This document shows positions 13,846-48,084 of a stretch of DNA of 64,000 bases, piece by piece. The notes under the pieces were generated by a model. The model saw only the letters and a program-made list of their open reading frames with translations. It did not search any database and was not told where the DNA came from. This DNA comes from an uncultured Paenibacillaceae bacterium. Lineage in GTDB: Bacteria > Bacillota > Bacilli > Paenibacillales > K13. The position numbers were made by a program, and so were the translations under genes. Within the stretch, counting starts at the first letter, position 1; the number at the start of each line of letters is the position of its first letter. Location: NCBI GenBank assembly GCA_913056365.1, contig CAJXLT010000001.1, positions 992,001-1,056,000 on the forward strand, given 5' to 3'.

Positions 13846-13860
13846 TCGTATATATGCCTC

Positions 13861-15282
13861 CTATGCTGAGAACCAGCTTTGTAGTCGTCGTATTCTTCGA
13901 ATCACCAGCAGATCCAGGATTAAGATCACCACAATGGACAATCCGACCAACGGCATGAGGGCTCCGAACAAGAGCATGATGAGCAGTACCCCGACTTGTA
14001 TTTTGCGAGGAATAGATTTGCCTGGGACACCCAGCTTTCCTTGCGGTTTTCTCTTCCGCCACATGAAGTAGGAACTAACCGCAATAACAATCAAGCCCAT
14101 GCAGGTCAGAAGCCCTAGAATCTGATTGGCCATGCCGAACAAGCGGCCTTCATGCAGTGCGATTCCCATCGTGATCGCTTTGGCCATTATGCCATAGTCT
14201 GCAAAACGGACATCTGTCAGAACAGCTCCGCTATATTGATCTATGTGTAGGGTAGCATCGCGGCCTGGTTGTTCATGCGCCGTAGAGATCGTATATACAC
14301 CGGTCTGGCCTTGCGGCATGGTGATGGTATACGGCTTAAGCACCTCGTTACGATCAGCGATCGGTATAATGTCCTGAATAGGTAGTCTGACATATCCGCC
14401 ACTCATTGATTGCGGGACAGGGATATTCTCGGCAGCCCAAGGCACGTTCTCCGCCACGTTCTTAGTCAATGTCACGGATTCCGGCTTCCCCAAGAAGCTA
14501 AGAGCATAAGGCGGATAGTTCGTATGCGTGGCATTGGCTATTCGATCAATCTGTCCGCCCAACACACCGGACCACGGCAGCCCGGTCGCAATAAGCACCA
14601 GGATACAGAGCGATAACCAGAATGCCGGTACAGCGTGCAGATCTCGCCAGAACGTGCGGCTGCCGGGCTTGCTCAGCCTGGGCAGTATCGTCCCCATAAT
14701 CGAAGCTTTATTGCGCGGCCACCACAGGTAAAGACCGGTCACGACCAGAATGACTGCCCAGCAGGCTGCAAGCTCCACCAACCGATTCGCCCATGTACCG
14801 CCAATGACGAGCTGGCTGTGCAATTTCTTGAAGAAGGCGGAGAAGGTCTCATCGCTGTTCATGATCCCCTTGATAGTACCGGTATACGGATCGGCATGCA
14901 TGGTCGTGGCTGCGTGATCCCGAACGGCTGACAATGTGACAGTCGATTTCGGATCATCCGATAATGTAATGGCGGTTATGGATGTACCAGGATAGGCACG
15001 CTCTGTCTTCGCTATTAGTTCATCCGCAGACATTGGCTGAGAGCCAACTGACGAAACGGTTAGCATGTCCTTGTACAGCATGCCTTCAATTTGCGGCTTG
15101 AACAAATAGACAGAACCGCTGAAGGCGAGGATAATTAGAAAAGGGGCGAAGATAAGTCCGGCATAGAAATGCCATCTCCATACGGATTGGTACAATGTCG
15201 GGAGGATGCGGTTCGCGGGAGGTTTTTTCGTTTCAGATAAAGTAGCATTGTGCTTTGCCTGTTCAGTAGGTGCATGCTGCAT
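13861..15282 (-). CDS. PepSY-associated transmembrane protein
   Basis: This 473-residue membrane protein has four or more transmembrane segments: one near residues 35-60, a pair in the middle (VILVVTGLYLWWPR, LSLCILVLIATGLPWSG) and a C-terminal pair. PepSY-type extracytoplasmic domains lie between them (DELIAKTERAYPG; RDATLHIDQYSGAVL). The LYLWWPR and SGSVYLFKP motifs are typical of the PepSY_TM family that includes the iron-uptake-associated PiuB-type proteins. It is first in a two-gene unit with the FixH-like lipoprotein and divergent from a two-component system that may control it. Metal or haem handling is inferred, not shown. Confidence 0.8.
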   Translation of the reverse strand: MQHAPTEQAKHNATLSETKKPPANRILPTLYQSVWRWHFYAGLIFAPFLIILAFSGSVYLFKPQIEGMLYKDMLTVSSVGSQPMSADELIAKTERAYPGTSITAITLSDDPKSTVTLSAVRDHAATTMHADPYTGTIKGIMNSDETFSAFFKKLHSQLVIGGTWANRLVELAACWAVILVVTGLYLWWPRNKASIMGTILPRLSKPGSRTFWRDLHAVPAFWLSLCILVLIATGLPWSGVLGGQIDRIANATHTNYPPYALSFLGKPESVTLTKNVAENVPWAAENIPVPQSMSGGYVRLPIQDIIPIADRNEVLKPYTITMPQGQTGVYTISTAHEQPGRDATLHIDQYSGAVLTDVRFADYGIMAKAITMGIALHEGRLFGMANQILGLLTCMGLIVIAVSSYFMWRKRKPQGKLGVPGKSIPRKIQVGVLLIMLLFGALMPLVGLSIVVILILDLLVIRRIRRLQSWFSA

Positions 15283-15483
15283 CGTCTAGTCTCAACTCCT
15301 ATTCTCATTACGATTACGCTTGCTTATTATACGTATACAGGACGTTCAGATCATATAGCCCAAAATAGTCAATTTCAACGGAAGTATGTCAAGATTGTGA
15401 GTTTTGTCGCGAGAAAGCAACCTCATGATACAATAAACTGGGCAGACAAGGTCATAGAGGAGAAGATGCCAAGGAGGTTGAAT

Positions 15484-16320
15484 ATGTCCTATAGACAAAT
15501 GAAATGGCTCATACTTATCATTCCTACGCTGACGATCGGAATCTGGGAGTACGTCCGGCATGAATTTCTGCTGCCGTATATCTCTATGGAATTGGGGAAT
15601 TGGCTCGCTCCGCTTATTGTGTTCCTCGTTACCGTCTTATTCCTGACACAGCTGTTCCGGCTTATCGAGCACAATCAAGCGGCATTGAATGAAGCGAAGG
15701 CTGTACAAGCAGCGATGCTGGAGCGTGAGCGTATCGCAAGAGAGCTGCACGACGGAATTGCGCAATCGTTGTTTCTATTGAATGCACAGGTTGATCGCAC
15801 CAGCCGACTGCATGCATCGGCACAACCAGTGGACGATTCGTTGCAGCAATTGAAAGAAAGTGTGCACCGCACGAACACCTATGTCCGGCAAGCGATTGCC
15901 AACTTGCGTTATCCCGCAGATGTCATGTCGATCCCATGGATGCAGAGCTTGACTAGTCTGATCGAGGAGCTGCAACGTGAATCCGAGCTTGCCATCACGA
16001 TCGATTGGCATATTCCAGAGGACGACTTGTCGGCGAAGGAGAAGGTGGAGCTGCTTGCCTCGATCCGTGAGGCGTTGATGAACATTCATAAGCATGCGGA
16101 AGCTCGTCATGTCCGTATCTATGCTTGCGAGCTAGAAGAGGGGTCATGGGAGGTCAAGATTACGGATGACGGCAAAGGCTTCGACATGCGATCCGGTGTG
16201 AGCCAGAACCAATATGGCATTCGGATGATGGAGGATCGAGCAGTGATGATGGGGTGGACTTTCCGTATCGAGCGCATTCATCACGAAACAGCGGTATGCA
16301 TAAGAAAAGGAGGAGCATAG
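15484..16320 (+). CDS. Sensor histidine kinase, NarL/DegS (HisKA_3) type
   Basis: This 278-residue kinase has two N-terminal membrane helices (about residues 7-23 and 38-58) enclosing only a short extracytoplasmic loop. A HisKA_3 domain follows with phospho-acceptor His89 in ARELHDGIAQSLF, then an HATPase domain with the N-box (REALMNIHKHAEA) and G-box (DDGKGFD). The small loop suggests sensing within the membrane or through partner proteins. ATG 15484 follows AAGGAGG; a longer frame from 15250 has no ribosome site. The stop is immediately followed by the response regulator ATG. It is divergent from the PepSY gene. Confidence 0.93.
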   Translation: MSYRQMKWLILIIPTLTIGIWEYVRHEFLLPYISMELGNWLAPLIVFLVTVLFLTQLFRLIEHNQAALNEAKAVQAAMLERERIARELHDGIAQSLFLLNAQVDRTSRLHASAQPVDDSLQQLKESVHRTNTYVRQAIANLRYPADVMSIPWMQSLTSLIEELQRESELAITIDWHIPEDDLSAKEKVELLASIREALMNIHKHAEARHVRIYACELEEGSWEVKITDDGKGFDMRSGVSQNQYGIRMMEDRAVMMGWTFRIERIHHETAVCIRKGGA

Positions 16321-16971
16321 ATGAGCGAACAGCATTATCGTGTACTCGTCATTGACGATAGCGAACAAGCAAGAGAAGCGATCCGTATGATTCTGAGCAG
16401 CAGCTCAACCTTCGAGGTAGTGGCAGAAGGTGCATCAGGCGAGGAAGCGCTTGTCCTCACCGAGCAGTGGATGCCTGATGTTATCTTAATGGACATCCAG
16501 ATGCCGGGCATGGGAGGACTGGAAGCGACGAAGCAGGTGAAGGACCGCTATCCGTACGTCAAGATCGTCATGGTGACGGTATCCGATGATATCGCGCACC
16601 TGTTCGATGCACTGAAGAGAGGAGCGCAAGGCTATCTGTTGAAGAACCTGCAGCCGGATTCCTGGCATGAATATTTGAAGGCGATCTGCGATGATGAAGC
16701 GCCGATGTCGAGGGAGCTGGCGTTCCGCATTCTGAAGGAATTCACTTCTGTTGACAAGAACAGCGATTCGATCACAAGTCCATTGACGGCGAGAGAACAA
16801 GAGATTCTTAACCATGTGGCGAAGGGCCTATCCAATCGAGAAATATCGACCGCATTGCAAATTTCCGAGAATACGGTGAAGAATCATCTGAAGAATATCT
16901 TGCACAAGCTCCATCTGGACAACCGCGTTCAGCTCGCCCGCTATGCGTATGAACATGGGTGGATGGGCTAA
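16321..16971 (+). CDS. LuxR/NarL-type response regulator
   Basis: This 216-residue protein has a receiver domain (about 1-125) with the phosphorylated Asp58 in VILMDIQMPG, the conserved Thr/Ser and Lys positions (VTVSDD, LLKN), and a C-terminal LuxR helix-turn-helix (about 150-212, LTAREQEILNHVAKGLSNREIS). It starts at the base after the kinase stop codon, with AAAGGAGGAG inside the kinase end, so the two are translationally coupled partners. The target genes are not shown; the divergent PepSY/FixH-like pair is the nearest candidate. Confidence 0.95.
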   Translation: MSEQHYRVLVIDDSEQAREAIRMILSSSSTFEVVAEGASGEEALVLTEQWMPDVILMDIQMPGMGGLEATKQVKDRYPYVKIVMVTVSDDIAHLFDALKRGAQGYLLKNLQPDSWHEYLKAICDDEAPMSRELAFRILKEFTSVDKNSDSITSPLTAREQEILNHVAKGLSNREISTALQISENTVKNHLKNILHKLHLDNRVQLARYAYEHGWMG

Positions 16972-16981
16972 GCTGCTGTGC

Positions 16982-17929
16982 TCACACTCTCATCGGCGCA
17001 TGATTCAGCTCGGACTTCTCAACCTGAATCGTCGTATGCTTGATCTTGTACCGTTCCTCTATAATATGAATAGCCTCTTGCAGAATCACCTGACTGTCCT
17101 TGTCATCCTCGATGAGTAGGTGACAGCTTAATGAATCCAGTCCGGAAGTAATCGTCCATACGTGAAGGTCGTGCACATCGCGAACTCCTACAATCTGCAT
17201 CAAAGACCGTTCGACTTCATCTGCATCAATCGTCGCAGGTGTTCCTTCCATCAGAATATGAACCGCTTGCTTCATAACACTCCACGCACTTCTTAGGATT
17301 AGCAAGGCCACGATCACACTTATGATCGGGTCTGCCGTATACCATCCCCATATATACATAATGGCTCCAGCTACAATCGCCCCAACCGATCCGAGCGCAT
17401 CACCGATAACATGCAAGTAGGCGCTGCGGACGTTGACATTCCCCTTCACATCACTCGTTCTCATAAGTGCCCAGACGCTGGCGATGTTCGCCAATAAGCC
17501 AATGCCGGCAATGAGCATCATCGAGCCGCTCGCTACAGTAGGCGGCGAAAGTAGTCGCTCATAAGCTTCATACACGATGAAACCGGCGATGAGGAACAAG
17601 GTTGCCCCATTGAATAATGCCGCTAAGATTTCGAATCGATAGAAGCCGTACGTCTTATTAGGGGAAGCAGGCTTCATGGCGAACCACATCGCTACCAAAC
17701 TTAATGCCAGCGATCCCGCATCGCTAAGCATATGACCAGAATCGGCAAGCAATGCCAAGCTATTCGTGATTAATCCGCCTACGAATTCAAGCACCATGAT
17801 GCCCGACGTAATAATGAGTGCTATGGCAAGTCCTTTTTTATTATTGGGGCCATGCGCGTGCGCGTGGCCATGATGATGACCGTGATGGTGATGATCGTCT
17901 CCGTGGTCATGATGGGTATGTGAATGCAT
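16982..17929 (-). CDS. Cation diffusion facilitator, CzcD-like
   Basis: This 315-residue metal/proton antiporter of the cytoplasmic membrane has a His-rich N-terminus (HSHTHHDHGDDHHHHGHHHG), six helices and a cytosolic C-terminal domain. The zinc-type transport sites are visible as ALLADSGHMLSDAG in TM2 and HVIGDALGSVGA in TM5 (HxxxD). It is expected to export Zn2+, Co2+ or Cd2+. ATG 17929 is preferred over the GTG five codons upstream because GAGGAG sits 8 bp before it. A palindrome resembling ArsR/SmtB-family operators lies 22 bp upstream of the start. Confidence 0.93.
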   Translation of the reverse strand: MHSHTHHDHGDDHHHHGHHHGHAHAHGPNNKKGLAIALIITSGIMVLEFVGGLITNSLALLADSGHMLSDAGSLALSLVAMWFAMKPASPNKTYGFYRFEILAALFNGATLFLIAGFIVYEAYERLLSPPTVASGSMMLIAGIGLLANIASVWALMRTSDVKGNVNVRSAYLHVIGDALGSVGAIVAGAIMYIWGWYTADPIISVIVALLILRSAWSVMKQAVHILMEGTPATIDADEVERSLMQIVGVRDVHDLHVWTITSGLDSLSCHLLIEDDKDSQVILQEAIHIIEERYKIKHTTIQVEKSELNHAPMRV

Positions 17930-17951
17930 CGAATCACTCCTCACTCTCTAT

Positions 17952-17971
17952 ATATGAGCATTTATTCATAT
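17952..17971 (-). promoter_or_regulatory. Candidate ArsR/SmtB (CzrA-type) operator upstream of czcD-like gene
   Basis: ATATGAGCA-TT-TATTCATAT is an imperfect 9-2-9 inverted repeat that closely fits the 12-2-12 operator style of zinc- and cadmium-sensing ArsR-family repressors (TGAACA..TGTTCA). It lies just upstream of the CDF gene start. The cognate regulator is not certain. Confidence 0.5.
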
Positions 17972-18134
17972 ATTATATTCCTTTTCCGTTCATGTCAAAT
18001 ATAGAGTTGGATCGGATGATGTGCATTAGCACTCACCATTCAATCAATCTAGACAATGGTGTCGATACTTTCATGTTTTCAGGGCATTCGATTCATACTA
18101 AGAACAGCCTTGACGACGGAAAGGGGATTCATGC

Positions 18135-19454
18135 ATGACGAACCTCGGCATCACGAGAACGACACGACCGATGAAGATCTTACTCTTCGGCGTACTGCTG
18201 GCTCACTTGGGTACATATATGATCATTCCGCTCATGCCTATATTCTTGAAGCTGGACAAAGGAATGAGTGTCGCCCAGATCGGACTTATTCTTGCGGTAT
18301 CTCCATTCACCTTCCAGGCAGGTAGCTTGTTGGGTGGATGGTTGGCTGATCGCTTCGGACGCCGTGCGATTATCGCGATAGGTGCATGGTTGAATGCCAT
18401 AGCCATTAGCGGATTTGCCTATTTCGATACATTATGGCTCTTCCTATGCATGGGGCTCTTAAGCGGTGTCGGCGTAGGACTGAATGCACCATCAACGAAA
18501 GCAGCAATTGCCACATTAGCTGCTACAGAAGGAACAACTACGACTGCATTCTCGCTGCGTGGGATTGCGGCCAATGTAGGAATTGCTACCGCCGGGTTGT
18601 TGACCTATTACGTGCTTGGCGGTCCATCACCGCTTATCTTCTACGTGTCAGCAATTATGTATGTGCTGTTGGGCGTGATTAGCTGGCTGCTGCTGCCGAA
18701 GGGTTGCGGCGATGCGCCATGCAAGTCAGAACAGTTACGATCGTACACAAGCATCTTCCGCAATAGAGCGTTCATGGTGTTTTCGCTAGTTGCCATTCTT
18801 ATGTGGGCGCTCTACACGCAACTAGTCATTAGCTTGCCGCTGCGTGCCGAAGATGTTCTCACGAATCCAGGGATGGTCAGTCTCATCTGGACGGTGAACA
18901 GTATTCTAGTTATTTCGTTACAATCGTTCATCACACGATGGATTATTGATAAATTCCATCCGATGACAGTCTTGTCGGCAGGATCTCTGTTTCTCGGTGC
19001 AGGATTAGGCTCGCTGTATTGGGCTGGCAGCTTCGTCGGCTTGCTCGTCAGCGGATTGATCTTCGTCATAGGCGAAATGCTCATTGTGCCAACCTCAGAT
19101 GCGACTGTGTCACGACTGGGGAATGCGGCGATGCTCGGAGCGTTCTTCGGCATTACGAACTTCGTATATGGTGTAGGAGAAGGCGCAGGCAAATATGCTG
19201 GCGGTCAATTACTTGCAATGGGCACTTCGTCTGCAACGCCTTGGCTTACCTATGCCGTTCTCGCGGTCATACTGTGCGGCGCGCTCATCGTCTTGCGCGT
19301 ATGGAAGCCTATGCAGGCAGCATTAGCACGTTCGAGCGAAGCATACGAAGGGGACGAGCCTGTTCATGAGCGTGAGCAAGCAGGTCCTCTCGAAGAAGGG
19401 CATGCCACATCCTTGCTCGATCGCGTATTCAGAAGGAAGAACCGCGCGAAGTAA
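18135..19454 (+). CDS. MFS transporter
   Basis: This is a 439-residue, twelve-helix major facilitator superfamily carrier. The motif between TM2 and TM3 is visible as GWLADRFGRRAIIA, and helix 4 carries SGVGVGLNAPSTKA. The pattern resembles drug/proton antiporters of the DHA1 group, but no substrate can be assigned. ATG 18135 follows AAAGGGG. The C-terminus has a charged tail of about 50 residues. It stands alone between the divergent CDF gene and the CmtR-cadA unit. Confidence 0.88.
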   Translation: MTNLGITRTTRPMKILLFGVLLAHLGTYMIIPLMPIFLKLDKGMSVAQIGLILAVSPFTFQAGSLLGGWLADRFGRRAIIAIGAWLNAIAISGFAYFDTLWLFLCMGLLSGVGVGLNAPSTKAAIATLAATEGTTTTAFSLRGIAANVGIATAGLLTYYVLGGPSPLIFYVSAIMYVLLGVISWLLLPKGCGDAPCKSEQLRSYTSIFRNRAFMVFSLVAILMWALYTQLVISLPLRAEDVLTNPGMVSLIWTVNSILVISLQSFITRWIIDKFHPMTVLSAGSLFLGAGLGSLYWAGSFVGLLVSGLIFVIGEMLIVPTSDATVSRLGNAAMLGAFFGITNFVYGVGEGAGKYAGGQLLAMGTSSATPWLTYAVLAVILCGALIVLRVWKPMQAALARSSEAYEGDEPVHEREQAGPLEEGHATSLLDRVFRRKNRAK

Positions 19455-19560
19455 TTCGCTACTTACCGTAGTGGATGAATGTGTGAATGTTCGTCTTGTC
19501 CAAGACGAGCTGATTGATCGATCTACATAGCAGATGTCAAGCGCACAGGTTGACTAACAC

Positions 19561-19610
19561 ATTAGTACATGCTAATATGTTCACAATCCAATACATTAGT
19601 CAATACTAAT
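19561..19610 (+). promoter_or_regulatory. Twin ATTAGT-N4-ACTAAT operators upstream of cmtR-like gene
   Basis: Two inverted repeats of the same type lie in the 76 bp before the regulator start: ATTAGT-acat-GCTAAT (19561-19576, one mismatch) and ATTAGT-caat-ACTAAT (19595-19610, perfect). The 34-bp distance puts them on nearly the same helix face. They are the obvious binding sites for the ArsR-family repressor encoded next. Confidence 0.7.
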
Positions 19611-19636
19611 ATATGTAGAAGAAGGAGTGAGGAGCT

Positions 19637-19960
19637 ATGCAAGCTGTTGCGATTGACGTGAAGACAAAGTTTATCCGCGGCTTCTCAGACAAGACGAGAT
19701 TGCAAATATTAGAGTCGATTCGAGAAGGAGAGAAATCTGTGTCTCAAATCGTCGAGGCTGTACAAGGGAATCAATCCAATGTATCCCAGCACCTAGCGTG
19801 TCTGAAGGGCTGCGGTATCATTGTCGGCAGGCAACAAGGCAAGTACATGTACTATTCGCTTCGTAATGAGCAAATAAGAGAGTTGTTGCTTCTGTTCGAT
19901 ACCGTACTCGAACAAATTCATGATGAAACAGTAGCATGCGACAACCATATCGTGGGGTGA
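19637..19960 (+). CDS. ArsR/SmtB-family repressor, CmtR-like cadmium/lead sensor
   Basis: This 107-residue winged-helix dimer represses metal-export genes until metal binds. The recognition helix region is QSNVSQHLACLKGCGII. Cys55 and Cys59 (CLKGC) within that helix plus Cys101 near the C-terminus reproduce the spacing of the CmtR metal site (Cys57, Cys61, Cys102). This is unlike CadC or SmtB, which use other positions. It is followed after 6 bp by a P-type ATPase gene with a Cd/Zn-type CPC motif, and preceded by twin operators. ATG 19637 follows AAGGAG. Cd2+/Pb2+ sensing is inferred from the cysteine pattern. Confidence 0.9.
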   Translation: MQAVAIDVKTKFIRGFSDKTRLQILESIREGEKSVSQIVEAVQGNQSNVSQHLACLKGCGIIVGRQQGKYMYYSLRNEQIRELLLLFDTVLEQIHDETVACDNHIVG

Positions 19961-19966
19961 AGGCAT

Positions 19967-22276
19967 ATGAGTGAAGACAACAAGTCTAGCAACTGCTGTC
20001 AGGACGATACGTGTCAGCATACACCTAACGAGAAGCGGACTTTCCGAACGAAGATCGATCTGCTGCCAGTGACACCTGCAAGCGAAGAAGCGAGCGCATG
20101 TCAGGACGATTGCTGTGAAGCGAATGAACAGATGCGTTCTGAGCGGTCTGCTCCTCAAACGCAGACACAAGCAGTACGAACCTACGACATTGCAGGCATG
20201 GATTGCGGGGCATGCGCGGTGACGATTGAGAATCAATTCAGAGACAATCCCGCTGTCAGCAGTGTAAGCGTGAACTTCTCGACTGGCAAGATGAAGATTG
20301 CGCATGACAATGCTGTAGATGATATTATGCAGACCGTCTCACGGGCAGGATATAGCGCTACATTAGTATCAGGGAGAGCCGGAAGCACAGCAGCGCAACC
20401 GAAGCCTGCAGCCAATCATTCTCTTCTGTTGTCCGGACTGCTGTTGGCACTAGGATTCATTGGTTTCTTATCTGATTTCACACCTGTCATCATCGATTCC
20501 TTCTATGCGCTGTCTATACTCCTAGGCGGATACAAGCCTGCTCGAAGCGCGTACTATGCGATCAAGAGTCGTTCCTTGGATATGAATGTATTGATGACTG
20601 CAGCAGTCATTGGAGCAGCGCTGATCGGGGAATGGTTGGAAGGCGCAACGGTAGTATGGCTGTTCGCGCTTGGCAATACGCTGCAGACAAGATCGATCGA
20701 GCGGACACGCCGTTCGATACGGCATTTGCTAGACCTTGCTCCTCCAGAAGCATCGGTGCGACGGGGCCAGCAGCTCATACAAGTGCCTGTAGAGGAAGTC
20801 GGACTAGGCAGTGTGATCGTCGTGAAGCCGGGTGATCGCATTCCCATGGACGGCAAGGTCCTGCAAGGGGAATCAACGGTGAATCAGGCACCCATAACGG
20901 GAGAATCGATTCCCGTAGATAAGGCGGCAGGCGATGACGTGTATGCTGGAACGATTAATGAGCATGGAACATTAGACATCACAGTGACGAAGCTATCTGA
21001 GAATACAACCTTATCCAAGATCATTCACTTGGTTGAGGAAGCACAGGAGAAGAAAGCGCCGACGCAAGCATTCGTGGATCGTTTCGCCCGCATTTATACA
21101 CCGATCGTCTTCGTGCTGGCATTGGCTGCGATGGTCGTACCGCCACTTGTCGGATTCGGGACTTGGGGCGAATGGTTCTATAGAGGGCTGGAACTGTTAG
21201 TAGTAGCATGCCCTTGTGCACTCGTGATATCGACTCCGGTTGCTATCGTCTCGGCTATCGGCAATGCAGCGAAGAATGGCGTTCTCATTAAGGGCGGGGC
21301 ATTCCTCGAGACAGCAGGAAGCATTAGCGCGATCGCTTTCGACAAGACAGGGACATTGACAGAAGGGCGCCCGACAGTCTCCCGCGTCGTTCCGATTCAT
21401 ACAAGCGAAGACGAATTGCTGTCGATCGCACATACCATCGAACAGTATTCCACGCACCCGATTGCCAAGGCAGTTACAGCCTATGCTAGTAGCCGAGGGA
21501 GAAGTCCACTGGACGGGGAAGCTTACAAGAACATTGTAGGTCGAGGGGTGCAAGCCAATGTGCAAGGAACCATCTATTATGCCGGGAATCCTAAGTTGTT
21601 CCAGGAGATGAATACGCCTGTACCTGTGCAGCATGAAGACTTGGTCCGTGAGCTTCAGCGAGAAGGCAACAGCTTGGTGCTAGTCGGAACGAAGGAGCAG
21701 CTGCTAGGCATCATTGCGGTGTCAGATACGATTCGCGATGTGACTGTTGACGCTATACAGGGTTTGAAGCGAGCAGGTGTACAAGAAGTGGTTATGCTGA
21801 CAGGTGATAACGAAGGGACAGCTGAGCGAATCGCAGCTGCTGCAGGAGTGGACCGGTATGTTGCCGAACTGTTGCCAGAGCACAAGGTGTCTGCTATCGA
21901 ACAGTTGAAGAACGAAGGCCACACCGTCGCAATGGTCGGCGATGGCATTAACGACGCGCCAGCGTTAGCTACCGCAAATTTGGGTATCGCCATGGGCGGG
22001 GCAGGTACAGACACTGCTATGGAGACGGCAGACATTGTGCTTATGGCGGACAACTTGAAGAAGTTGCCGCACACGATTCAACTGAGCCGCCGAGCGTTGC
22101 TTATTATTAAGCAGAACATCTGGTTTTCTCTGATTATTAAATTCGTGGCGCTCGTGTTAATCTTCCCGGACATTCTGACATTATGGCTTGCGGTGCTCAG
22201 CGACACAGGTGCTGCCTTGCTCGTCATTCTGAACAGCATGAGATTATTAAGGATGCATAAAGGAGATACAATATGA
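19967..22276 (+). CDS. cadA: Heavy-metal P1B-type ATPase, CadA-like
   Basis: This 769-residue ATP-driven exporter of divalent metals sits in the cytoplasmic membrane. A Cys-rich N-terminal stretch (NCCQDDTC, CQDDCC) precedes one HMA domain with Cys80xxCys83 (GMDCGACA). The transport motif Cys415-Pro-Cys417 lies in the membrane, the phosphorylated Asp459 in DKTGTLTEG, and MVGDGINDAPAL follows. The CPC plus the C-terminal membrane Lys/Asp pattern fit Cd2+/Zn2+/Pb2+ exporters rather than copper pumps. The gene is 6 bp after the CmtR-like repressor and shares its stop codon with the next start. Confidence 0.95.
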   Translation: MSEDNKSSNCCQDDTCQHTPNEKRTFRTKIDLLPVTPASEEASACQDDCCEANEQMRSERSAPQTQTQAVRTYDIAGMDCGACAVTIENQFRDNPAVSSVSVNFSTGKMKIAHDNAVDDIMQTVSRAGYSATLVSGRAGSTAAQPKPAANHSLLLSGLLLALGFIGFLSDFTPVIIDSFYALSILLGGYKPARSAYYAIKSRSLDMNVLMTAAVIGAALIGEWLEGATVVWLFALGNTLQTRSIERTRRSIRHLLDLAPPEASVRRGQQLIQVPVEEVGLGSVIVVKPGDRIPMDGKVLQGESTVNQAPITGESIPVDKAAGDDVYAGTINEHGTLDITVTKLSENTTLSKIIHLVEEAQEKKAPTQAFVDRFARIYTPIVFVLALAAMVVPPLVGFGTWGEWFYRGLELLVVACPCALVISTPVAIVSAIGNAAKNGVLIKGGAFLETAGSISAIAFDKTGTLTEGRPTVSRVVPIHTSEDELLSIAHTIEQYSTHPIAKAVTAYASSRGRSPLDGEAYKNIVGRGVQANVQGTIYYAGNPKLFQEMNTPVPVQHEDLVRELQREGNSLVLVGTKEQLLGIIAVSDTIRDVTVDAIQGLKRAGVQEVVMLTGDNEGTAERIAAAAGVDRYVAELLPEHKVSAIEQLKNEGHTVAMVGDGINDAPALATANLGIAMGGAGTDTAMETADIVLMADNLKKLPHTIQLSRRALLIIKQNIWFSLIIKFVALVLIFPDILTLWLAVLSDTGAALLVILNSMRLLRMHKGDTI

Positions 22277-23061
22277 TTCAGGCTCAGCTGTATGGGAAGG
22301 CAGCTTCCGAATTAACCTGGAGCGAAGATGTCTTAACGTCCAATATATTCGGGTTATTGAAGTATGTAAGTACACCTGAAGTGATACTGTCGATTCTACA
22401 GGGCAGTTATAACTTAGATGGTGAATCATTGCAGTTCGAGCGTGACGTAGAACGCATCAGCTACAGGTTCTGGCCGCGCTTGAACAGAAGTGAACCGGAC
22501 CTCGTTATACTTGTCCATACAAGCAACGGCGATCATATCATAGGCGTCGAAGCCAAGTATATCTCAGGCAAATCTAACGTAGAAGACTTGACGAAAGATA
22601 GTGACAGCAAGCAACGCGATCAACTAGCCAGGGAAATCGAGGATTTATATGATACTACGAACTATCCCATCATAGGCGTAGATGAAGCATCTGTGCTATC
22701 GATCCGTCTCATATACCTGACGTTAGAATCGTATATGCCAGTTGAGGAGCTGCATGCGTCGCTGGAATCGGTACAGCTTCATGCTTTATGTCCTGCTTTT
22801 GCACCTCAAGATCTGTATTGGCTATCATGGAAATCCATGTACGACAACTTGCGATGCGAATCCCCAAGTGCTACAGATACGCTCATTCTCCACGATCTTA
22901 GAAGCTACTTGGACAGGAAAAACATGCGGTCCTTCGCAGGCTATACCATCAATCCAGTCAACTACCTAACATGGCACTACGCCAAGCAAGTATCAAAGTC
23001 GTTAACCGCAGTGGCACCCATTACATGGAACTATAAGGAGCTCGAGTATGGAACTGAATGA
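22273..23061 (+). CDS. PD-(D/E)XK nuclease-like protein of unknown function
   Basis: I do not recognise this 262-residue protein as a named family. A central segment has the PD-(D/E)XK pattern: Asp76 in RSEPDLVILV and Glu93-Ala-Lys95 in IIGVEAKYISGK, separated by a beta hairpin. This is as in restriction-endonuclease-fold proteins. The rest is mixed alpha/beta with many aromatic residues. It overlaps the cadA stop by ATGA, so it is translated with the ATPase, and it overlaps the next (broken) gene by 14 bp. A nuclease role is inferred from the motif only; the physiological link to metal export is unclear. Confidence 0.65.
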   Translation: MIQAQLYGKAASELTWSEDVLTSNIFGLLKYVSTPEVILSILQGSYNLDGESLQFERDVERISYRFWPRLNRSEPDLVILVHTSNGDHIIGVEAKYISGKSNVEDLTKDSDSKQRDQLAREIEDLYDTTNYPIIGVDEASVLSIRLIYLTLESYMPVEELHASLESVQLHALCPAFAPQDLYWLSWKSMYDNLRCESPSATDTLILHDLRSYLDRKNMRSFAGYTINPVNYLTWHYAKQVSKSLTAVAPITWNYKELEYGTE

Positions 23062-23591
23062 GATGATGCGCATATCTATTGAAAATGTCAGGACTTTGAC
23101 GAGCAACAGCATCCAACTGCTTCGGGATACGGACTTACTGCTTGCCAAATCGGGCTACAATCCGCTTCACGGCAATACGATCGGTAGCGAAACTAGTAAA
23201 AACATCAATCAGTCAGCCAGTTCAAGGCGGAACTTTCTTCCCGCAATACATGTCCAGATATTATGTGAACAGACAAGAAGATGCAGCACACACCGTTTTA
23301 TGTGTGAACATTCAGTTGTACCATTTCAATCGAGAGGCTATGGACCCTTGTCTCATTTCTGGCATATGCAAATTAAAGGACCAAAGTCTGTATGTGCAGC
23401 ATTATTGGCTCAAATACTATGCGTTCGAAGCTCGACACGACTTTGTCGCGGACGGAACGATATTTCATGATGAAGATGAAGAAGCCGTAATGGACTATTG
23501 GGGCGAGCCATTAAGCATCTTCCACAGCAATCAAGTGCTCCAGGACAAAGTAGTTAATCGATTATTGGCTATGGCGAAAGCGAATGAATGA
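23048..23591 (+). pseudogene. Frameshifted hypothetical gene paired with the PD-(D/E)XK gene
   Basis: The first frame starts at ATG 23048 (MELNEMMRISIENVRTL), overlapping the upstream gene by 14 bp, and looks coherent to about residue 55. The coherent sequence then continues in the next frame (VQGGTFFPQYMSRYYVNRQEDAAHTV to the stop at 23591). The whole span is 544 bp, one more than a multiple of three, which fits a single-base insertion. The AAAAA run near 23204-23210 is a likely site. Joined, it would give about 180 residues. Sequencing error, true decay or programmed frameshifting cannot be separated here. Function unknown. Confidence 0.65.
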
Positions 23592-23843
23592 CGCTTTGTG
23601 TGTGGATTAATCTACAGCTTTTGCACAAACATACTTACGGTTATAATATATAAGGAGGGGATAGAGCTTGTCATGTAACAATCCATCCCTCATTCTTGAC
23701 CCTCTCCAACTTTCTTAGCAGCGCGAAAGTGTATTGACGTCCGCAAACAGTTATTGGAAGGCGCAACACTGTTTCTCTAGACCCACTCCACTACGGCTAG
23801 TTATAATAACACGGTACAATCTAATCCGTTAGGAGATCTGTCC

Positions 23844-24707
23844 GTGGAGTTGCGTAAGAAGAAGTCGAATGTAGAAGTAGGAGCATGGCTCAGTATAGGC
23901 GTTTACGTCGTGTTATCTTGTATCAAGTTAGTCATTGGCTATTATACCGATTCAAGGGCTTTGTTCGCGGATGGTTTGAATAATGCTACCGATATTCTCG
24001 CTTCGATCGCTATATTGGTCGGATTCAAAATTTCGAAGCGTCCAGCTGATGAAGATCACAAGTATGGTCATTCACGAGCAGAGACTGTCGCTTCTATGAT
24101 CGCAAGCTTCATTATGGTGCTTGTCGGTGTGGAAGTGTTGATTTCCTCAGCTGAACAATTCATCACAGGGGACACGCCAACGCCAGACATGATCGCTGCC
24201 TGGACGGCATTACTGTGTGCGGGGGTCATGTTCGCTGTATATATCTTCAATATGAAGCTGTCCCGATCAACAGGAAGCTTGGCGTTGAAGGCTGTTGCTG
24301 TCGACAACCGTTCCGATGCGTTGGTGAGCATTGGATCATTCGTCGGCATTATCGGAAGTGTAGTCGGCTTGATCTGGCTCGATGTGGTGACTGCTTTCAT
24401 CGTTGGGCTTATCATATGCATAACGGGCTGGAACATATTCAAGGAATCCACTCATCGGTTGACAGATGGATTCGATCAGGATGAACTAGATAAGTACCAT
24501 GCAGTGATCGACACCATTACTGGGGTAGAGACAGTCAAGGAAATCAAGGGTCGCATGCATGGCGATCATGTGTTCCTTGATCTCGTGATTGAGGTTGATC
24601 CGCAGCTTAGCGTGTATGAAAGCCATGAAATTACGGAAGAAATCGAGAACGAATTGAAGCGGCAATTCAACATCGAGCACGTGCATGTCCATATAGAACC
24701 GAGCTGA
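23844..24707 (+). CDS. Cation diffusion facilitator, MneP/YdfM-like
   Basis: This 287-residue membrane metal exporter has six helices and a cytosolic ferredoxin-like C-terminal domain (VIDTITGVETVKEIKGR to HVHIEP). The TM2 site reads ADGLNNATD and the following loop DHKYGHSRAE; the Asn in place of His is usual in the manganese-exporting MneP/MneS group, whereas the CzcD-like protein at 16982 has the zinc-type HxxxD. Start GTG 23844 follows TAGGAGA. Manganese specificity is inferred. It is monocistronic; the CstR-like promoter follows. Confidence 0.88.
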   Translation: MELRKKKSNVEVGAWLSIGVYVVLSCIKLVIGYYTDSRALFADGLNNATDILASIAILVGFKISKRPADEDHKYGHSRAETVASMIASFIMVLVGVEVLISSAEQFITGDTPTPDMIAAWTALLCAGVMFAVYIFNMKLSRSTGSLALKAVAVDNRSDALVSIGSFVGIIGSVVGLIWLDVVTAFIVGLIICITGWNIFKESTHRLTDGFDQDELDKYHAVIDTITGVETVKEIKGRMHGDHVFLDLVIEVDPQLSVYESHEITEEIENELKRQFNIEHVHVHIEPS

Positions 24708-24728
24708 AGCAGCTGGATATCATAGGCT

Positions 24729-24757
24729 TTGTCAATCTGCTTAAGGCACGCTATAAT
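24729..24757 (+). promoter_or_regulatory. SigA-type promoter of the CstR-like gene
   Basis: TTGTCA (24729-24734), a 17-bp spacer and a perfect TATAAT (24752-24757) lie 35 bp before the repressor start. An operator palindrome directly follows the -10. Confidence 0.85.
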
Positions 24758-24774
24758 ATACCTATACAGGTATA
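24757..24774 (+). promoter_or_regulatory. CstR/CsoR-type operator 1
   Basis: TATACCT-atac-AGGTATA is an inverted repeat with the same outer TATACC/GGTATA halves and four-base spacer as the three downstream copies. It covers the transcription start of the repressor gene and so suggests autoregulation. Confidence 0.75.
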
Positions 24775-24792
24775 TGAATAGGAGGGATCGTC

Positions 24793-25059
24793 ATGAACGC
24801 TCAATATGATGAAGATGTGAAGCGCAGACTTCGGCGTGTAGAAGGACAAGTGCGCGGTGTGCTCAAGATGATGGAAGAGGACAAGAACTGCAAGGACGTA
24901 GTCAGTCAACTATCAGCGGTTCGCAGTGCGGTGGACAAGGCTATAGCATATGTGGTCGCGGTAAATTTGGAGAAGTGCATTCTGGAAGAGCAAGAGTCCG
25001 GCAACGATACGGGCAAGATGGTTCAAGAAGCTGTAGAGCTATTGATTAAGAGCAGGTAG
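24793..25059 (+). CDS. CsoR-family repressor, CstR-like persulfide sensor (YrkD-like)
   Basis: This 88-residue all-helical DNA-binding protein has Cys33 (KNCKDV) and Cys62 (NLEKC) at the two conserved thiol positions. The His that copper-sensing CsoR proteins carry four residues before the second Cys is Asn58 here. That is the pattern of CstR, which is derepressed when persulfide or tetrasulfide links the two cysteines. The genes that follow are all sulfur-transfer or persulfide-oxidation proteins, which supports sulfide/persulfide sensing over copper. Start ATG 24793 follows AGGAGGG. Confidence 0.93.
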   Translation: MNAQYDEDVKRRLRRVEGQVRGVLKMMEEDKNCKDVVSQLSAVRSAVDKAIAYVVAVNLEKCILEEQESGNDTGKMVQEAVELLIKSR

Positions 25060-25069
25060 ATGACCACAG

Positions 25070-25098
25070 TTGACATTATACCCTAAGGGGTATATAAT
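25070..25098 (+). promoter_or_regulatory. Consensus promoter with CstR-type operator 2 inside the spacer
   Basis: A perfect TTGACA (25070-25075) and TATAAT (25093-25098) are 17 bp apart. The palindrome TATACCC-taag-GGGTATA (25077-25094) fills the spacer and runs into the -10, so bound repressor would exclude RNA polymerase. This is the main promoter for the sulfur genes. Confidence 0.9.
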
Positions 25099-25166
25099 CA
25101 TACACGTAGCAAACATCATATCACTTATGAAATGGACTCCGATCCATTTTTTATTTTACTCCCTTC

Positions 25167-25184
25167 AATACCCATAGGGGTATT
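25167..25184 (+). promoter_or_regulatory. CstR-type operator 3
   Basis: AATACCC-atag-GGGTATT is a perfect palindromic half-site pair lying about 33 bp before the DsrE gene start, about 70 bp after the main promoter. It could act as a roadblock or cooperate with operator 2. Confidence 0.75.
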
Positions 25185-25216
25185 GGTATAAAACTTAGAA
25201 CTAGGAGGTTCCAACA

Positions 25217-25696
25217 ATGACGGAACAGAAGAAAACAACGATTGTCCTCTTCAGTGGGGATTATGACAAAACAATGGCTGCGTACATTATTGCGAATGGG
25301 GCGGCAGCTTACGATCATGAAGTTACGATCTTCCATACTTTCTGGGGATTGAATGCCCTGCGTAAGGATGAGCCCATCACTGTGAAGAAGAATTTCATGG
25401 AGAAGATGTTCGGCAAGATGATGCCGCGCGGTGCTGACAAGATGGGACTATCTAAGATGAACTTCGCAGGTATGGGTCCTAAGATGATCAAAGACATTAT
25501 GAAGAAGCACAATGCCATACCATTGCCGCAATTAATCGAGATGGCACAGGAACAGGATGTGAAGCTTGTCGCATGCACGATGACGATGGACTTGCTCGGT
25601 CTTCATAAGGAGGAACTATTAGACGACATTGATTATGCCGGTGTGGCTGCCTATCTGGGTGATGCGCAGGAAGGTCATGTCAACTTATTCATCTAG
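25217..25696 (+). CDS. yrkE: DsrE/DsrF-like (DsrE2) sulfur carrier protein
   Basis: This 159-residue cytosolic protein has the DsrE2-type fold: an N-terminal beta-alpha start (TTIVLFSGDYDKTMAAYIIANGAAAY) and the conserved thiol in VKLVACTMTMDLLG, about residue 120, which carries persulfide sulfur. The middle holds a Met/Lys-rich segment (KMFGKMMPRGADKMGLSKMNF) usual in this subgroup. The position after a CstR-like repressor and before TusA and rhodanese genes matches B. subtilis yrkE. It probably accepts or relays sulfane sulfur. ATG 25217 follows AGGAGG. Confidence 0.9.
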   Translation: MTEQKKTTIVLFSGDYDKTMAAYIIANGAAAYDHEVTIFHTFWGLNALRKDEPITVKKNFMEKMFGKMMPRGADKMGLSKMNFAGMGPKMIKDIMKKHNAIPLPQLIEMAQEQDVKLVACTMTMDLLGLHKEELLDDIDYAGVAAYLGDAQEGHVNLFI

Positions 25697-25737
25697 GTTT
25701 CACGATTAAACACTTGGAGAGAGGAGAAATGAAGAAC

Positions 25738-26034
25738 ATGAGAACGATAACTGCCCAAGAAGTAAAACAATTGTTAGCAGATAAGCAGCAACTCCATCTC
25801 ATTGATGTGCGAGAAGCAGATGAAGTTGCTACCGGCATCATTCCCGGCGCTCAGAACATTCCATTATCCTTATTGGAGTTCCGCATGCATGAATTAGATA
25901 AATCTCAAGAATTCATTATCGTATGCAGATCAGGTGCGAGAAGCGGTCGTGCCGCTGAATTTCTTGACTATCAAGGCTTTCATGTGAGCAATATGACAGG
26001 CGGTATGTTGGCATGGGAAGGCGAAGTCGAGTAA
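25738..26034 (+). CDS. Single-domain rhodanese sulfurtransferase
   Basis: This 98-residue rhodanese domain has the active-site cysteine in IIVCRSGARSGRA, a six-residue loop typical of rhodaneses acting on thiosulfate or persulfide, and the N-terminal HLIDVREADE strand. Start choice: ATG 25738 has AGGAG 11 bp upstream, while ATG 25729 is only 2 bp from it, so 25738 is favoured though the spacing is long. It lies in the sulfur operon between yrkE and yrkF homologues and probably moves sulfane sulfur between carriers. Confidence 0.88.
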   Translation: MRTITAQEVKQLLADKQQLHLIDVREADEVATGIIPGAQNIPLSLLEFRMHELDKSQEFIIVCRSGARSGRAAEFLDYQGFHVSNMTGGMLAWEGEVE

Positions 26035-26051
26035 ATTTTTTTGCATAATTT

Positions 26052-26069
26052 AATACCCATAGGGGTATA
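26052..26069 (+). promoter_or_regulatory. CstR-type operator 4 inside the operon
   Basis: AATACCC-atag-GGGTATA lies 28 bp before the TusA-rhodanese gene. Its core is identical to operator 3. It suggests a second, internal regulated transcript or a repressor roadblock. Confidence 0.72.
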
Positions 26070-26096
26070 GAACCTATTAAGGAGGCTACAATTCGA

Positions 26097-26663
26097 ATGC
26101 ATACACTGAAGTCAGATATTGTACTGGATGCCCAAGGGCTAGCTTGCCCGATGCCGATTGTACGGACGAAGAAGCAATTGAATGCGATGCAAGCCGGTCA
26201 GATTCTAGAGGTACAGGCTACAGATAAAGGATCGACAGCGGATCTCAAAGCATGGGCCGAATCAACAGGCCATCACTATCTCGGCACGTTGGAGGAAGGC
26301 GATGTACTCAAGCATTATATACGCAAAGCGAACGATGAAGGTTCATCAGATCGGAAGCATCCTGATGTTGTGAACAATAACGTCCTGGAGAGCAAGCTGT
26401 CTGAAGACGGTGTTGCCGTTATTGATGTAAGAGAAGAGGCTGAATTTGCCTTCCAGCACATTCCAGGAGCGGTGTCCATACCACTTGGAGAGCTAGAGGG
26501 TCGCATCGATCAGCTGAATAAGGAAGCGGATATTTATGTGATATGCCGCACAGGAAGCCGCAGTGATCTGGCCGCTCAGAAGTTAAGCAAGCTTGGATTC
26601 TCTAACGTGTACAACGTTGTACCTGGTATGAGCGAGTGGAAGGGACAGACTGAAGGGCTGTAA
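26097..26663 (+). CDS. yrkF: TusA-rhodanese fusion sulfurtransferase
   Basis: This 188-residue protein has two sulfur-transfer modules. An N-terminal TusA domain (about 5-78) has the active Cys in GLACPMPIVRTKK, and a C-terminal rhodanese (about 95-185) has IYVICRTGSRSDLA. The same pairing occurs in B. subtilis YrkF and, with an added DsrE domain, in CstA of Staphylococcus aureus. It probably hands sulfane sulfur from rhodanese to TusA thiols. ATG 26097 follows AAGGAGG, and the operator 26052-26069 is just upstream. Confidence 0.93.
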   Translation: MHTLKSDIVLDAQGLACPMPIVRTKKQLNAMQAGQILEVQATDKGSTADLKAWAESTGHHYLGTLEEGDVLKHYIRKANDEGSSDRKHPDVVNNNVLESKLSEDGVAVIDVREEAEFAFQHIPGAVSIPLGELEGRIDQLNKEADIYVICRTGSRSDLAAQKLSKLGFSNVYNVVPGMSEWKGQTEGL

Positions 26664-26699
26664 GCCCGATTGACATTATTAACATGGAGGCGAACGACG

Positions 26700-27833
26700 A
26701 TGACTGTCAACAAGATTACGGCCAAGCAAATGGCGCGCAAGATCATCGACAAGGAGTCCTTATTCTTACTCGATGTGCGCAATTCCTCAAATTATGACGA
26801 TTGGAAGATTGAAGGACACCACTTTCACTATTTGAACGTTCCTTACTTTGACTTACTCGATGGGGTTGAAGAGATCTTACCGAAGCTTCCGCGGGATCAA
26901 GACATTGTCGTGGTCTGTGCTAAGGAAGGGTCTTCGATTATGGTTGCCGAGATGCTTGTAGAAGCAGGATTGACCCATGTATTTTCATTTGAAGGTGGCA
27001 TGAAGGCATGGAGTGAGCATCTGGAGCCGGTGAAAATTGGAGATTTGTCGGACGGCGGGGAACTGATTCAATTCGTCCGGATGGGGAAGGGATGCTTGTC
27101 CTACATGGTGATATCGCAAGGTGAAGCTGCGATTATCGATCCTACACGGATGACGGACGTGTATATCGATTATGCGAACGAATCCGGTGTCACGATTAAG
27201 CATGTGTTGGATACCCACCTTCATGCGGATCACATCTCAGGAGGGAGACAGATTGCTGAGAAGACAGGCGCGGCCTACTGGCTTCCGCCCAAGGACGCTG
27301 AAGAAGTGACGTACGACTATTACCAGCTAGAAGAAGGGCAACCAATCACGGTCGGTACATCTGCCATCGATATGCATGCGCTCTACACACCCGGCCACAC
27401 GATCGGATCAACTTCTTTCATCGTAGATGAGAAGTTCTTGATGACGGGAGACATCCTGTTCATCGATTCAATCGGAAGATCGGACCTTGCTGGCAAGGCA
27501 GAGGATTGGGTTGCTGACCTGAGACAGAGCTTGTATTCCCGATATAGAGCGCTGTCTGATGATCTCCTTGTGTTACCTGCTCACTTCATGATCATTGATG
27601 AATTGAATGAAGATGGCAGTGTGTCGGAACGCTTAGGCACCTTATTCCGTCACAATCACGGACTAAATATTCACGACGAACAACAATTTAGAGCACTGGT
27701 GACGGATAATTTGCCGCCGCAGCCTAATGCTTATCAAGAGATTCGACTCACGAACATGGGAAAGCAGCAGCCCGATGCGGATGAACAGCGTGAGATGGAG
27801 ATCGGTCCGAATCGGTGTGCCGTTCGGTCCTAG
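26700..27833 (+). CDS. yrkH: Rhodanese-persulfide dioxygenase fusion (YrkH/CstB-like)
   Basis: This 377-residue protein joins an N-terminal rhodanese domain (about 1-110, active Cys in [11 protein letters not shown]) to an ETHE1-like metallo-beta-lactamase domain with [11 protein letters not shown], the acidic TGDILF and other metal ligands. Such dioxygenases oxidise glutathione, coenzyme A or bacillithiol persulfide to sulfite using Fe2+ and O2. S. aureus CstB has the dioxygenase first and a rhodanese at its C-terminus, so domain order here is reversed and matches B. subtilis YrkH. ATG 26700 follows GGAGG at normal spacing. Product sulfite may be exported by the TauE protein downstream. Confidence 0.93.
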
Positions 27834-27877
27834 TTCGTCACTGACAATTACCTACAATTTCGAAGGGGGAAATAACG

Positions 27878-28105
27878 ATGCAAGCTGTACAAGTATTAGA
27901 TGCGAAAGGGTTGGCTTGTCCAATGCCAATCGTCAAGACGAAGAAAGCAATGAAGGAGCTCGCTTCAGGCGAAGTATTGGAAGTCCATACAACAGATCAA
28001 GGGGCTAAGGCTGATTTATCGGCATGGGCCAAATCTGGCGGGCATGAGCTTATGAAGGTTGAGGAAGAGAACGGGGTTCTCAAATTTTGGTTGAAGAAAG
28101 CGTAA
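27878..28105 (+). CDS. yrkI: TusA-type sulfur carrier protein
   Basis: This 75-residue single TusA domain has the active cysteine in GLACPMPIVKTKKAM and the following beta-alpha-beta core (LEVHTTDQGAKADLSAWAK). It closely resembles the N-terminal half of the YrkF-like protein in the same operon, so the operon carries a free and a fused copy. It probably shuttles sulfane sulfur. ATG 27878 follows AAGGGGG. Confidence 0.93.
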   Translation: MQAVQVLDAKGLACPMPIVKTKKAMKELASGEVLEVHTTDQGAKADLSAWAKSGGHELMKVEEENGVLKFWLKKA

Positions 28106-28162
28106 TTTCATAGAGAGGGAGACGGTCCACTTGGTTTCCCTCTAACAGAGGAGGGGACTCTA

Positions 28163-28942
28163 GTGGACATCGATTTTATTGTTGTTATTTTTGTAATCGG
28201 ATTTGTAGGATCATTCTTATCAGGAATGCTTGGAATCGGCGGATCCATCATCAAGTATCCAATGCTCCTCTATATACCGCCACTCTTCGGATTAGCTGCA
28301 TTCACAGCGCATGAAGTATCCGGCATTAGTGCCGTTCAAGTGTTCTTCGCAACGATTGGCGGCGTATGGGCTTACCGGAAGGGCGGTTATCTGAATAAGA
28401 GGCTAATCATGTACATGGGTGTCAGCATTCTGATTGGCAGCTTCATAGGCGGATATGGTTCCAAGTTGTTGCCTGAAGCCGGGATCAATATGGTCTACGG
28501 CATTCTCGCACTATCCGCTGCGGGAATGATGCTGCTTCCTAAGAACCAAGTGGATGATACTCCTCTAGATCAAGTGAAATTTCATCCCTGGATCGCAGCC
28601 ATATCGGCACTGATTGTTGGAGTAGGGGCAGGCATTGTCGGCGCTGCTGGTGCATTCCTGCTAGTACCTATCATGCTAGTCGTCTTGAAAATCCCTACAC
28701 GAATGACGATCGCTTCTTCCCTTGCGATCACGTTCATTTCGTCCATCGGGGCAACAGTTGGGAAGATCACGACAGGGCAAGTTGAGTACTACCCTGCCCT
28801 TATTATGGTCGTAGCCAGCTTATTAGCATCGCCGCTTGGTGTAATGACTGGGAAAAAAGTCAATACGAAGGTCCTACAAGTCATATTGGCTGTTCTGATC
28901 AGCGTTACAGCGATTCAAATATGGATAAATATACTACTTTAA
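28163..28942 (+). CDS. yrkJ: TauE/SafE-family sulfite/organosulfonate exporter
   Basis: This 259-residue membrane protein has about eight helices and the family's repeated Gly-rich motifs (GMLGIGGSIIKYPMLLYIPP; GVGAGIVGAAGAFLLVPIMLV). Family members are thought to export sulfite or organosulfonates. Its place at the end of the persulfide operon fits removal of sulfite formed by the persulfide dioxygenase, but this is inference. GTG 28163 is the start, behind AGGAGGGG. A terminator follows at 28949. Confidence 0.9.
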   Translation: MDIDFIVVIFVIGFVGSFLSGMLGIGGSIIKYPMLLYIPPLFGLAAFTAHEVSGISAVQVFFATIGGVWAYRKGGYLNKRLIMYMGVSILIGSFIGGYGSKLLPEAGINMVYGILALSAAGMMLLPKNQVDDTPLDQVKFHPWIAAISALIVGVGAGIVGAAGAFLLVPIMLVVLKIPTRMTIASSLAITFISSIGATVGKITTGQVEYYPALIMVVASLLASPLGVMTGKKVNTKVLQVILAVLISVTAIQIWINILL

Positions 28943-28948
28943 CTTGAT

Positions 28949-28978
28949 AGGACACCCTTGCGGTGTTCTCTTTATTTT
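28949..28978 (+). terminator. Terminator of the sulfur operon
   Basis: AGGACACC (28949-28956) pairs with GGTGTTCT (28962-28969), one wobble, followed by CTTTATTTT. It lies just after the exporter stop codon. Confidence 0.85.
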
Positions 28979-28981
28979 GCA

Positions 28982-29884: not shown

Positions 29885-29961
29885 TCAAAATCTCCCTTTC
29901 ACTGAGCAAGTATCCCTATACAATATGGAAAATAATCGATCGTTGTGCATGATCTACATCA

Positions 29962-31029: not shown

Positions 31030-31045
31030 GATGCATGTTCCTTTC

Positions 31046-31072
31046 TTAATATTTAATGTAATTAAATATTAA
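31046..31072. promoter_or_regulatory. Perfect AT-rich palindrome upstream of xerS
   Basis: TTAATATTTAAT (31046-31057) and ATTAAATATTAA (31061-31072) are exact 12-bp arms around GTA, ending 17 bp before the xerS start. Entirely A/T arms fit an operator or a structure-prone site better than a terminator. Nothing else in the window has this motif. Confidence 0.65.
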
Positions 31073-48060: not shown

Positions 48061-48084
48061 CATCTGGGCAACAGCTCGACATAT

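Follow-up and report, generated by a model that had tools for sequence, protein, structure and literature searches.

The window analysed here is a stretch of 64,000 nucleotides from the genome of an uncultured Paenibacillaceae bacterium (contig CAJXLT010000001.1, positions 992,001 to 1,056,000). Directly downstream of cadA, a gene specifying a P-type metal ATPase, it carries two overlapping genes, A and B; A encodes a nuclease-like protein of the PD-(D/E)XK type, while the reading frame of B is interrupted. An earlier note on this DNA had called attention to the ATGA overlap linking A to cadA and to a 14-nucleotide overlap linking A to a frameshifted partner, and had proposed that a small defence or restriction-like pair had joined a metal-resistance operon. 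Both overlaps were read directly in the DNA, and comparison with the intact B of a sister genome (G001) located the frame change. The features of the pair and its junction with cadA are as follows.

22273-23061, plus strand: gene A, PD-(D/E)XK nuclease-like protein of 262 amino acids, intact (reading frame, homologues, fold comparison)
23048-23061, plus strand: overlap of A and B, 14 nucleotides; the start of B is the ATG at 23048 (read directly)
23048-23470, plus strand: gene B, frame 1, B residues 1 to ~57, then off-frame until the stop at 23470
23142-23591, plus strand: gene B, frame 2, the remainder of B from ~23232 (alignment with G001 B)
23219-23231, plus strand: point at which the two frames of B diverge (alignment with intact G001 B)
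22259-22265, plus strand: AAAGGAG, likely ribosome-binding site of A, lying in the 3′-end of cadA, at the start of the homology with G001
22273-22276, plus strand: ATGA, stop of cadA and start of A, overlapping by 4 nucleotides (read directly)
19967-22276, plus strand: cadA, P-type metal ATPase, a neighbour outside the A-B pair (library match); not beside A in G001

In G001, B is a single open frame of 180 amino acids; frame 1 of the window B matches its residues 1-79, and frame 2 its residues 57-178. No second copy of A or B was found in the window genome (G000).

Judged by its sequence, A is a protein of the PD-(D/E)XK type with a predicted nuclease role, as the earlier note had assigned it. 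Residues E18, D19, D76 and Q117 were invariant in an alignment of 68 homologues (68/68), while E74, E93 and K95 were conserved in 67/68; the signature is complete in the window protein (the D, the (D/E)xK motif, and the flanking acidic and Gln positions). Comparison of A with its counterpart in G001 gave a ratio of non-synonymous to synonymous substitution (dN/dS) of 0.19, indicative of purifying selection, with synonymous sites near saturation. The best Pfam match was REase-ARP (PF22558), with an E-value of 0.014 for the window protein and 3.1e-5 for the best homologue, in both cases below the cut-off; the window protein scored 15.5 bits against the 27 needed, and PDDEXK_13, also under its cut-off, 14.7. 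NERD and DUF4143 were matched weakly (E ≤0.1) by 39/68 and 43/68 of the homologues, respectively. That of locus L015 exceeded the NERD cut-off (28.5 versus 22.1 bits), while the window A gave no NERD match at E-values up to 1. The fold of A was modelled on a natural A-B fusion (locus L098; alignment of 10 sequences, predicted local distance difference test score [pLDDT] 80.1, predicted template modelling score [pTM] 0.55). Structural comparison of the A part with VIA-align returned R.BspD6I (2p14; Z 7.9, root-mean-square deviation [rmsd] 4.0, 125 residues aligned), Can2 (Z 7.8) and Nt.BspD6I (Z 7.2); the matches include restriction and CRISPR-ancillary PD-(D/E)XK enzymes, as well as McrC (6hz4). 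A Foldseek search with the fusion model returned nothing under an E-value of 0.001, and endonucleases of the restriction-endonuclease-like fold headed its list. The model thus points to a restriction-endonuclease-like core fold in A.

A and B form a real unit, and their link is near-universal. This was determined over 87 loci (L010-L016 plus L030-L109; L017, a duplicate of L033, was left out), which came from the A-bearing genomes of the order (13 of 392) and from the best 80 of 120 loci found in 84,980 species genomes. A homologue of B adjoins A or is fused to it in 80/87 loci, so the broken gene in the window is indeed the partner of A, as had been suggested. B was absent beside A in L042, L073, L085 (at a contig end), L095, L104, L108 and L109, with weak B-like genes present in L104 and L108. 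The two genes are fused into a single protein in 10/87 loci; the fusion label required four changes, at least two of them forced by starred branches, on the tree built from 78 A domains. Among the separate intact pairs, 57/62 overlap, by 4-35 nucleotides, the commonest overlap being 14 nucleotides (16 pairs); the 62 pairs are those in which both start and stop were defined, with L017 and L033, which are one record, both counted. The A-B overlap in the window is therefore more than chance. In L077 a 369-amino-acid gene (4632-5738) separates A and B, and in L036 a relative of that gene (4739-5824; 37% identity) immediately precedes A, on the opposite strand.

The partner B resembles no known family by sequence. 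Searches of B against Pfam, NCBIfam, PHROGs and PADLOC returned no family above chance, with a hint of SecB at an E-value of 0.093; no chaperone family of Pfam was matched by any of 64 B proteins, and a sequence search of the PDB yielded neither a chaperone nor a credible relative. The idea that B might be a duplicate of A was discarded, the two profiles being without similarity (E 0.16). The fold of B was modelled with the intact G001 protein (64 alignment rows, pLDDT 77.7, pTM 0.75). VIA-align placed SycT at the top (Z 8.3, rmsd 4.0, 106 residues aligned), with YbjN at Z 6.0, and the top 29 rows consisted entirely of type III secretion chaperones, members of the YbjN family and 2plg, an uncharacterised protein (Z 8.3-5.5). 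The B part of the fused L098 model gave similar chaperone-type matches (Z 5.0-6.3), its highest row being an unrelated translocon chain (Z 6.5). B is thus predicted to have the fold of type III secretion and YbjN chaperones (the TY-chaperone fold). The G001 model was built using rows from the large B family, to which window-type B was connected in two steps: hhalign related window-type B to intermediate B genes, which adjoin additional A genes, with a probability of 96.5 (E 7.6e-10), and these to the large family with a probability of 97.0 (E 1.2e-10). With five shuffled controls, the probability did not exceed 0.4.

The distribution of A is patchy (13/392 genomes of the order; 14/398 genomes of the phylum). 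A first scan of genome contigs with a single sequence gave no match. A Niallia plasmid carries an intact pair, both genes of which are annotated as 'hypothetical protein'; the present analysis joins two such genes into one family of pairs. Near-identical A genes occur in records assigned to different phyla (L091/L094 and L098/L106; tree distances ~0.13-0.14), a likeness due to either recent transfer or misbinned contigs. On a plasmid of Pseudomonas luteola (L149:5923-7341), a gene remotely homologous to A (hhalign probability 97.3) is followed by a 225-amino-acid gene which profile comparison did not tie to B (2.6 and 4.9); its neighbours are HNH, RES/Xre and helicase genes.

The pairing, the fusions, the conserved active site, the predicted folds, the synteny and the gene context form the basis for reading A-B as a two-subunit nuclease that makes up a small, mobile host-defence module, degraded in the window genome, a reading to which we assign a probability of about 0.6. 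In such a module, A would be the PD-(D/E)XK catalytic subunit, cutting nucleic acid, while B would bind A and most likely hold either an invader's protein or peptide, or else A, so that A is positioned on nucleic acid or triggered to attack it. The 1:1 ratio of A and B would be kept by coupled translation or by fusion, and the overlap with cadA would have arisen once metal-resistance genes landed directly upstream of the older pair. The A-B complex, the triggering of A by B, the cleavage of nucleic acid in the cell, the target and the antiviral purpose are what we infer from these observations, as is a defence activity of the pair. A more specific version, which we hold only tentatively, is that A-B is a so far unnamed stand-alone system in which the chaperone-fold B senses a polypeptide of the invader and switches on the bound PD-(D/E)XK nuclease; if true, protein sensing by a chaperone fold would be linked directly to the cleavage of nucleic acid, the two functions residing in separate genes or in one fusion.

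Several points limit the case for a defence module. The fused model has a pTM of 0.55, and the A-B interface is not established; the B fold comes from models with pLDDT values of 77.7 and 80.1, and a Z of ~8 may mean merely a shared arrangement. Window-type B (G001 and G126) reaches the large B family through intermediates only, the direct hhalign probability being 0.7. There were no relatives in 50,697 phage records, and one scan of viral contigs confirmed none. Many A-B loci stand alone amid ordinary genes. Finally, PADLOC families among the neighbours speak for the module, 117 of the 267 listed neighbour proteins having matched 176 models when compared with PADLOC (E 1e-8), among them WYL, LeoBC, mad3, PsyrT, AriA and a type I restriction endonuclease (REase); this count illustrates but does not measure enrichment, since there was no control set.

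The alternative that survives best, although we consider it unlikely, is a toxin-antitoxin pair in which B, a chaperone-like antitoxin, silences the nuclease toxin A until B is lost. Two small overlapping genes with a patchy and mobile distribution would fit this idea, and chaperone-type folds are known to bind partner proteins. However, A is the upstream gene, the two are fused in 10/87 loci, and an open A accompanies an interrupted B in L013, L015 and L016 as well as in the window; the converse, an interrupted A beside an open B, occurs in L046, L075 and L076. That either gene can be lost while the other stays open suggests that neither kills alone. Neither gene thus seems to be needed by the other for the survival of the cell, which favours an effector complex requiring both over a simple toxin-antitoxin pair, even though an open A might be inactive through changes that are invisible at the active site. 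Recurrent loss of B was at one point considered a meaningful pattern, since B was broken in four of the first nine loci and A in none; this asymmetry was a small-sample effect, given that the 87 loci contain three interruptions of B and three of A.

Defence genes of the McrBC-like and pPIWI-RE kinds are recurrent neighbours of the pair, which speaks for the defence reading. Relatives of AAA genes and of DUF2357-nuclease genes were found within 6 kb of it in 10/87 and 9/87 loci, respectively. At L015 a pPIWI-RE set flanks the pair on one side and AAA plus DUF2357-PDDEXK_7 genes on the other, and pPIWI-RE genes also accompany it in relatives of that locus. DUF2357 is present in 105/246 genomes of the order, mostly in one copy (by a rough estimate, 0.001 per 10-kb stretch), and yet it lies at ≤5 kb from A in six of the 13 A-bearing genomes (G178, G181, G189, where A is a fragment, G225, G232 and G324). 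On the tree, the DUF2357 label required six changes, at least three of them forced, among eight labelled rows, and was weakly clustered (12/500 shuffles were as low). In L127, the gene following B (2754-3194) appears to resemble BrxF of BREX systems. The associations with AAA, DUF2357 and pPIWI-RE genes would also be expected if A-B were not an independent system but an accessory to McrBC-like or pPIWI-RE ones. We regard this as improbable, since about nine-tenths of the loci, those of the window and G001 included, have no McrBC-like or pPIWI-RE genes in the stretch examined, and the order and orientation of the neighbours vary.

About equally improbable is that B is in fact intact, its frame change being a sequencing error or being bridged by programmed frameshifting. 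In the comparison with G001, the two parts of B gave dN/dS values of 0.14 and ≤0.02, and the whole gene 0.10, all with synonymous sites near saturation; both parts are thus under purifying selection, so the break must be recent, or not real. Against an intact B are the lack of a long homopolymer at the frame change; the other syntenic window genes compared, which match G001 within one frame; the single frame of most homologues, those that are interrupted having different lesions elsewhere; and the frame-1 stop, which lies ~80 codons past the change. Programmed frameshifting was rejected as unlikely. Our preferred reading therefore holds B to have been broken recently, for which reason the module is probably inactive in the window genome.

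The link with cadA was examined by comparing the window with contig 29 of G001, with which it is collinear in three blocks: 13396-16967 corresponds to 53697-50154, 22259-23579 to 50116-48790, and 29971-31094 to 48725-47582. The order in G001 is NarL-type regulator, A, B and tyrosine recombinase, spaced by some tens of bases, with no cadA; the window has an extra 5.3 kb before A and 6.4 kb after B, containing metal and sulfur genes. The features flanking the pair in the window are as follows.

13396-16967: left syntenic block, collinear with G001, ending with a NarL-type response regulator
16321-16971: NarL-type response regulator, directly upstream of A in G001
16972-22258: CDF-type exporter, MFS protein, ArsR-type regulator and cadA, not at the G001 site
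23592-29970: CDF exporter, CsoR-family regulator and DsrE/rhodanese/TusA-type proteins, not at the G001 site, and also a TauE-type permease and a ferritin-like protein (names by reading the sequences)
29971-31094, minus strand: right syntenic block with a tyrosine-recombinase-like gene (name by reading), directly beyond B in G001

The ArsR-type regulator gene precedes cadA (library match). Since homology with G001 starts at 22259, the likely ribosome-binding site of A is its own, now covered by the 3′-end of cadA. A tblastn search with the window cadA found no relative in 100 other loci, that of G126 (the next relative) included; one record occurs twice among these loci, and 12 have just 1.5 kb per side. 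Weak ArsR and MFS matches were seen in three of them. The overlap of cadA and A is seen in the window genome only and is a local accident; with a sister site devoid of cadA and 0/100 loci with a cadA relative, the cadmium link is incidental. The proposal that the pair joined a metal-resistance operon is therefore not upheld. Most likely, the metal genes joined an older pair, or were lost in the sister; insertion in the window and loss in G001 are indistinguishable with two genomes alone. When the edges of the two extra stretches were searched for direct repeats, no 11-mers were in common in the stretches compared. The locus shows a route by which a spurious operon link can arise, a cassette coming to adjoin an older unit. 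That A-B now functions within the metal-resistance operon, for example in metal-triggered DNA cleavage or repair, is very improbable, for while the ATGA overlap, the purifying selection on A (dN/dS 0.19) and the lack of a terminator-like site on the plus strand between cadA and A would agree with it, the link occurs in one genome and in 0/100 other loci, G001 has the pair at the same site without cadA, and B is broken here.

Some further observations concern the flanks. The tyrosine-recombinase-like gene (29965-31068, minus strand) is in one frame in the window and in two frames in G001 (contig 29, ~47629-48734). Between 24793 and 28942, a CsoR-family regulator gene is followed by DsrE, rhodanese, TusA, metallo-beta-lactamase/rhodanese and TauE-type genes. 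A repeat, ATACCCATAGGGGTAT, is present in two copies upstream of genes (25151-25183 and 26036-26068); these presumably resemble the operators of the persulfide-sensing CstR regulon.

Among known systems, one close to A is the PADLOC candidate PDC-M15A, its best match in that database (E 9e-9, over window residues 1-79). The A of L015 was matched over residues 7-206 on the 231-position model (E 4.5e-8), PADLOC giving no cut-off for it, and the model picked out 10 of 299 genomes of the phylum, in nine of which our own alignment had likewise detected A. The match to the window protein is nevertheless confined to the first 80-100 residues, all scores are low (the best being 55.7 bits), and B matches no PADLOC model. 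Since A is distantly related to PDC-M15A, the nuclease half has already been flagged as a candidate; no paper on the naming or composition of PDC-M15 was found in the literature searched. Nor was any description of the A-B pair found in that literature, in which preprints and subscription papers were thinly covered, and partner B, the fusions and the chaperone fold are undescribed so far as these searches show. The weak likeness of A homologues to NERD and other Pfam PD-(D/E)XK families does not extend to a NERD match for the window protein. The earlier description of a defence or restriction-like pair stands in part: homologous pairs often lie among defence genes, and neither of the outcomes that the note named as refuting it, homologues lacking a link between the two genes and unconserved PD-(D/E)XK residues, was observed, but there is no evidence for 'restriction-like' in the sense of a nuclease that cuts at specific sequences alongside a protecting methylase, the A-B unit itself containing no methyltransferase (the loci were not searched for one systematically). 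McrBC type IV restriction (CoCoNuT, PMC11090510) is a frequent neighbour, and the fold matches of A include McrC; however, the pair lacks an AAA motor, and DUF2357 is not matched by A. Also close are the ARG-centred conflict systems (PMC9503650), predicted systems in which TY-Chap1-3 chaperones and a rapidly evolving REase occur together, and from which the name TY-chaperone for the fold group of B is taken: the best Pfam match of A is REase-ARP, and the predicted fold of B is that of the TY-chaperones. They differ in that the Pfam matches of A are below cut-off and that here there is a minimal pair, or fusion, of nuclease and chaperone-fold protein; no ARG/phosphatase core was seen to define A-B loci, though no systematic search was made. 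Chaperone-fold proteins are predicted in antiviral systems (PMC9503650). A minimal pair of nuclease and chaperone-fold protein, with natural fusions and single-gene losses, would be a clean object in which to test their role there.

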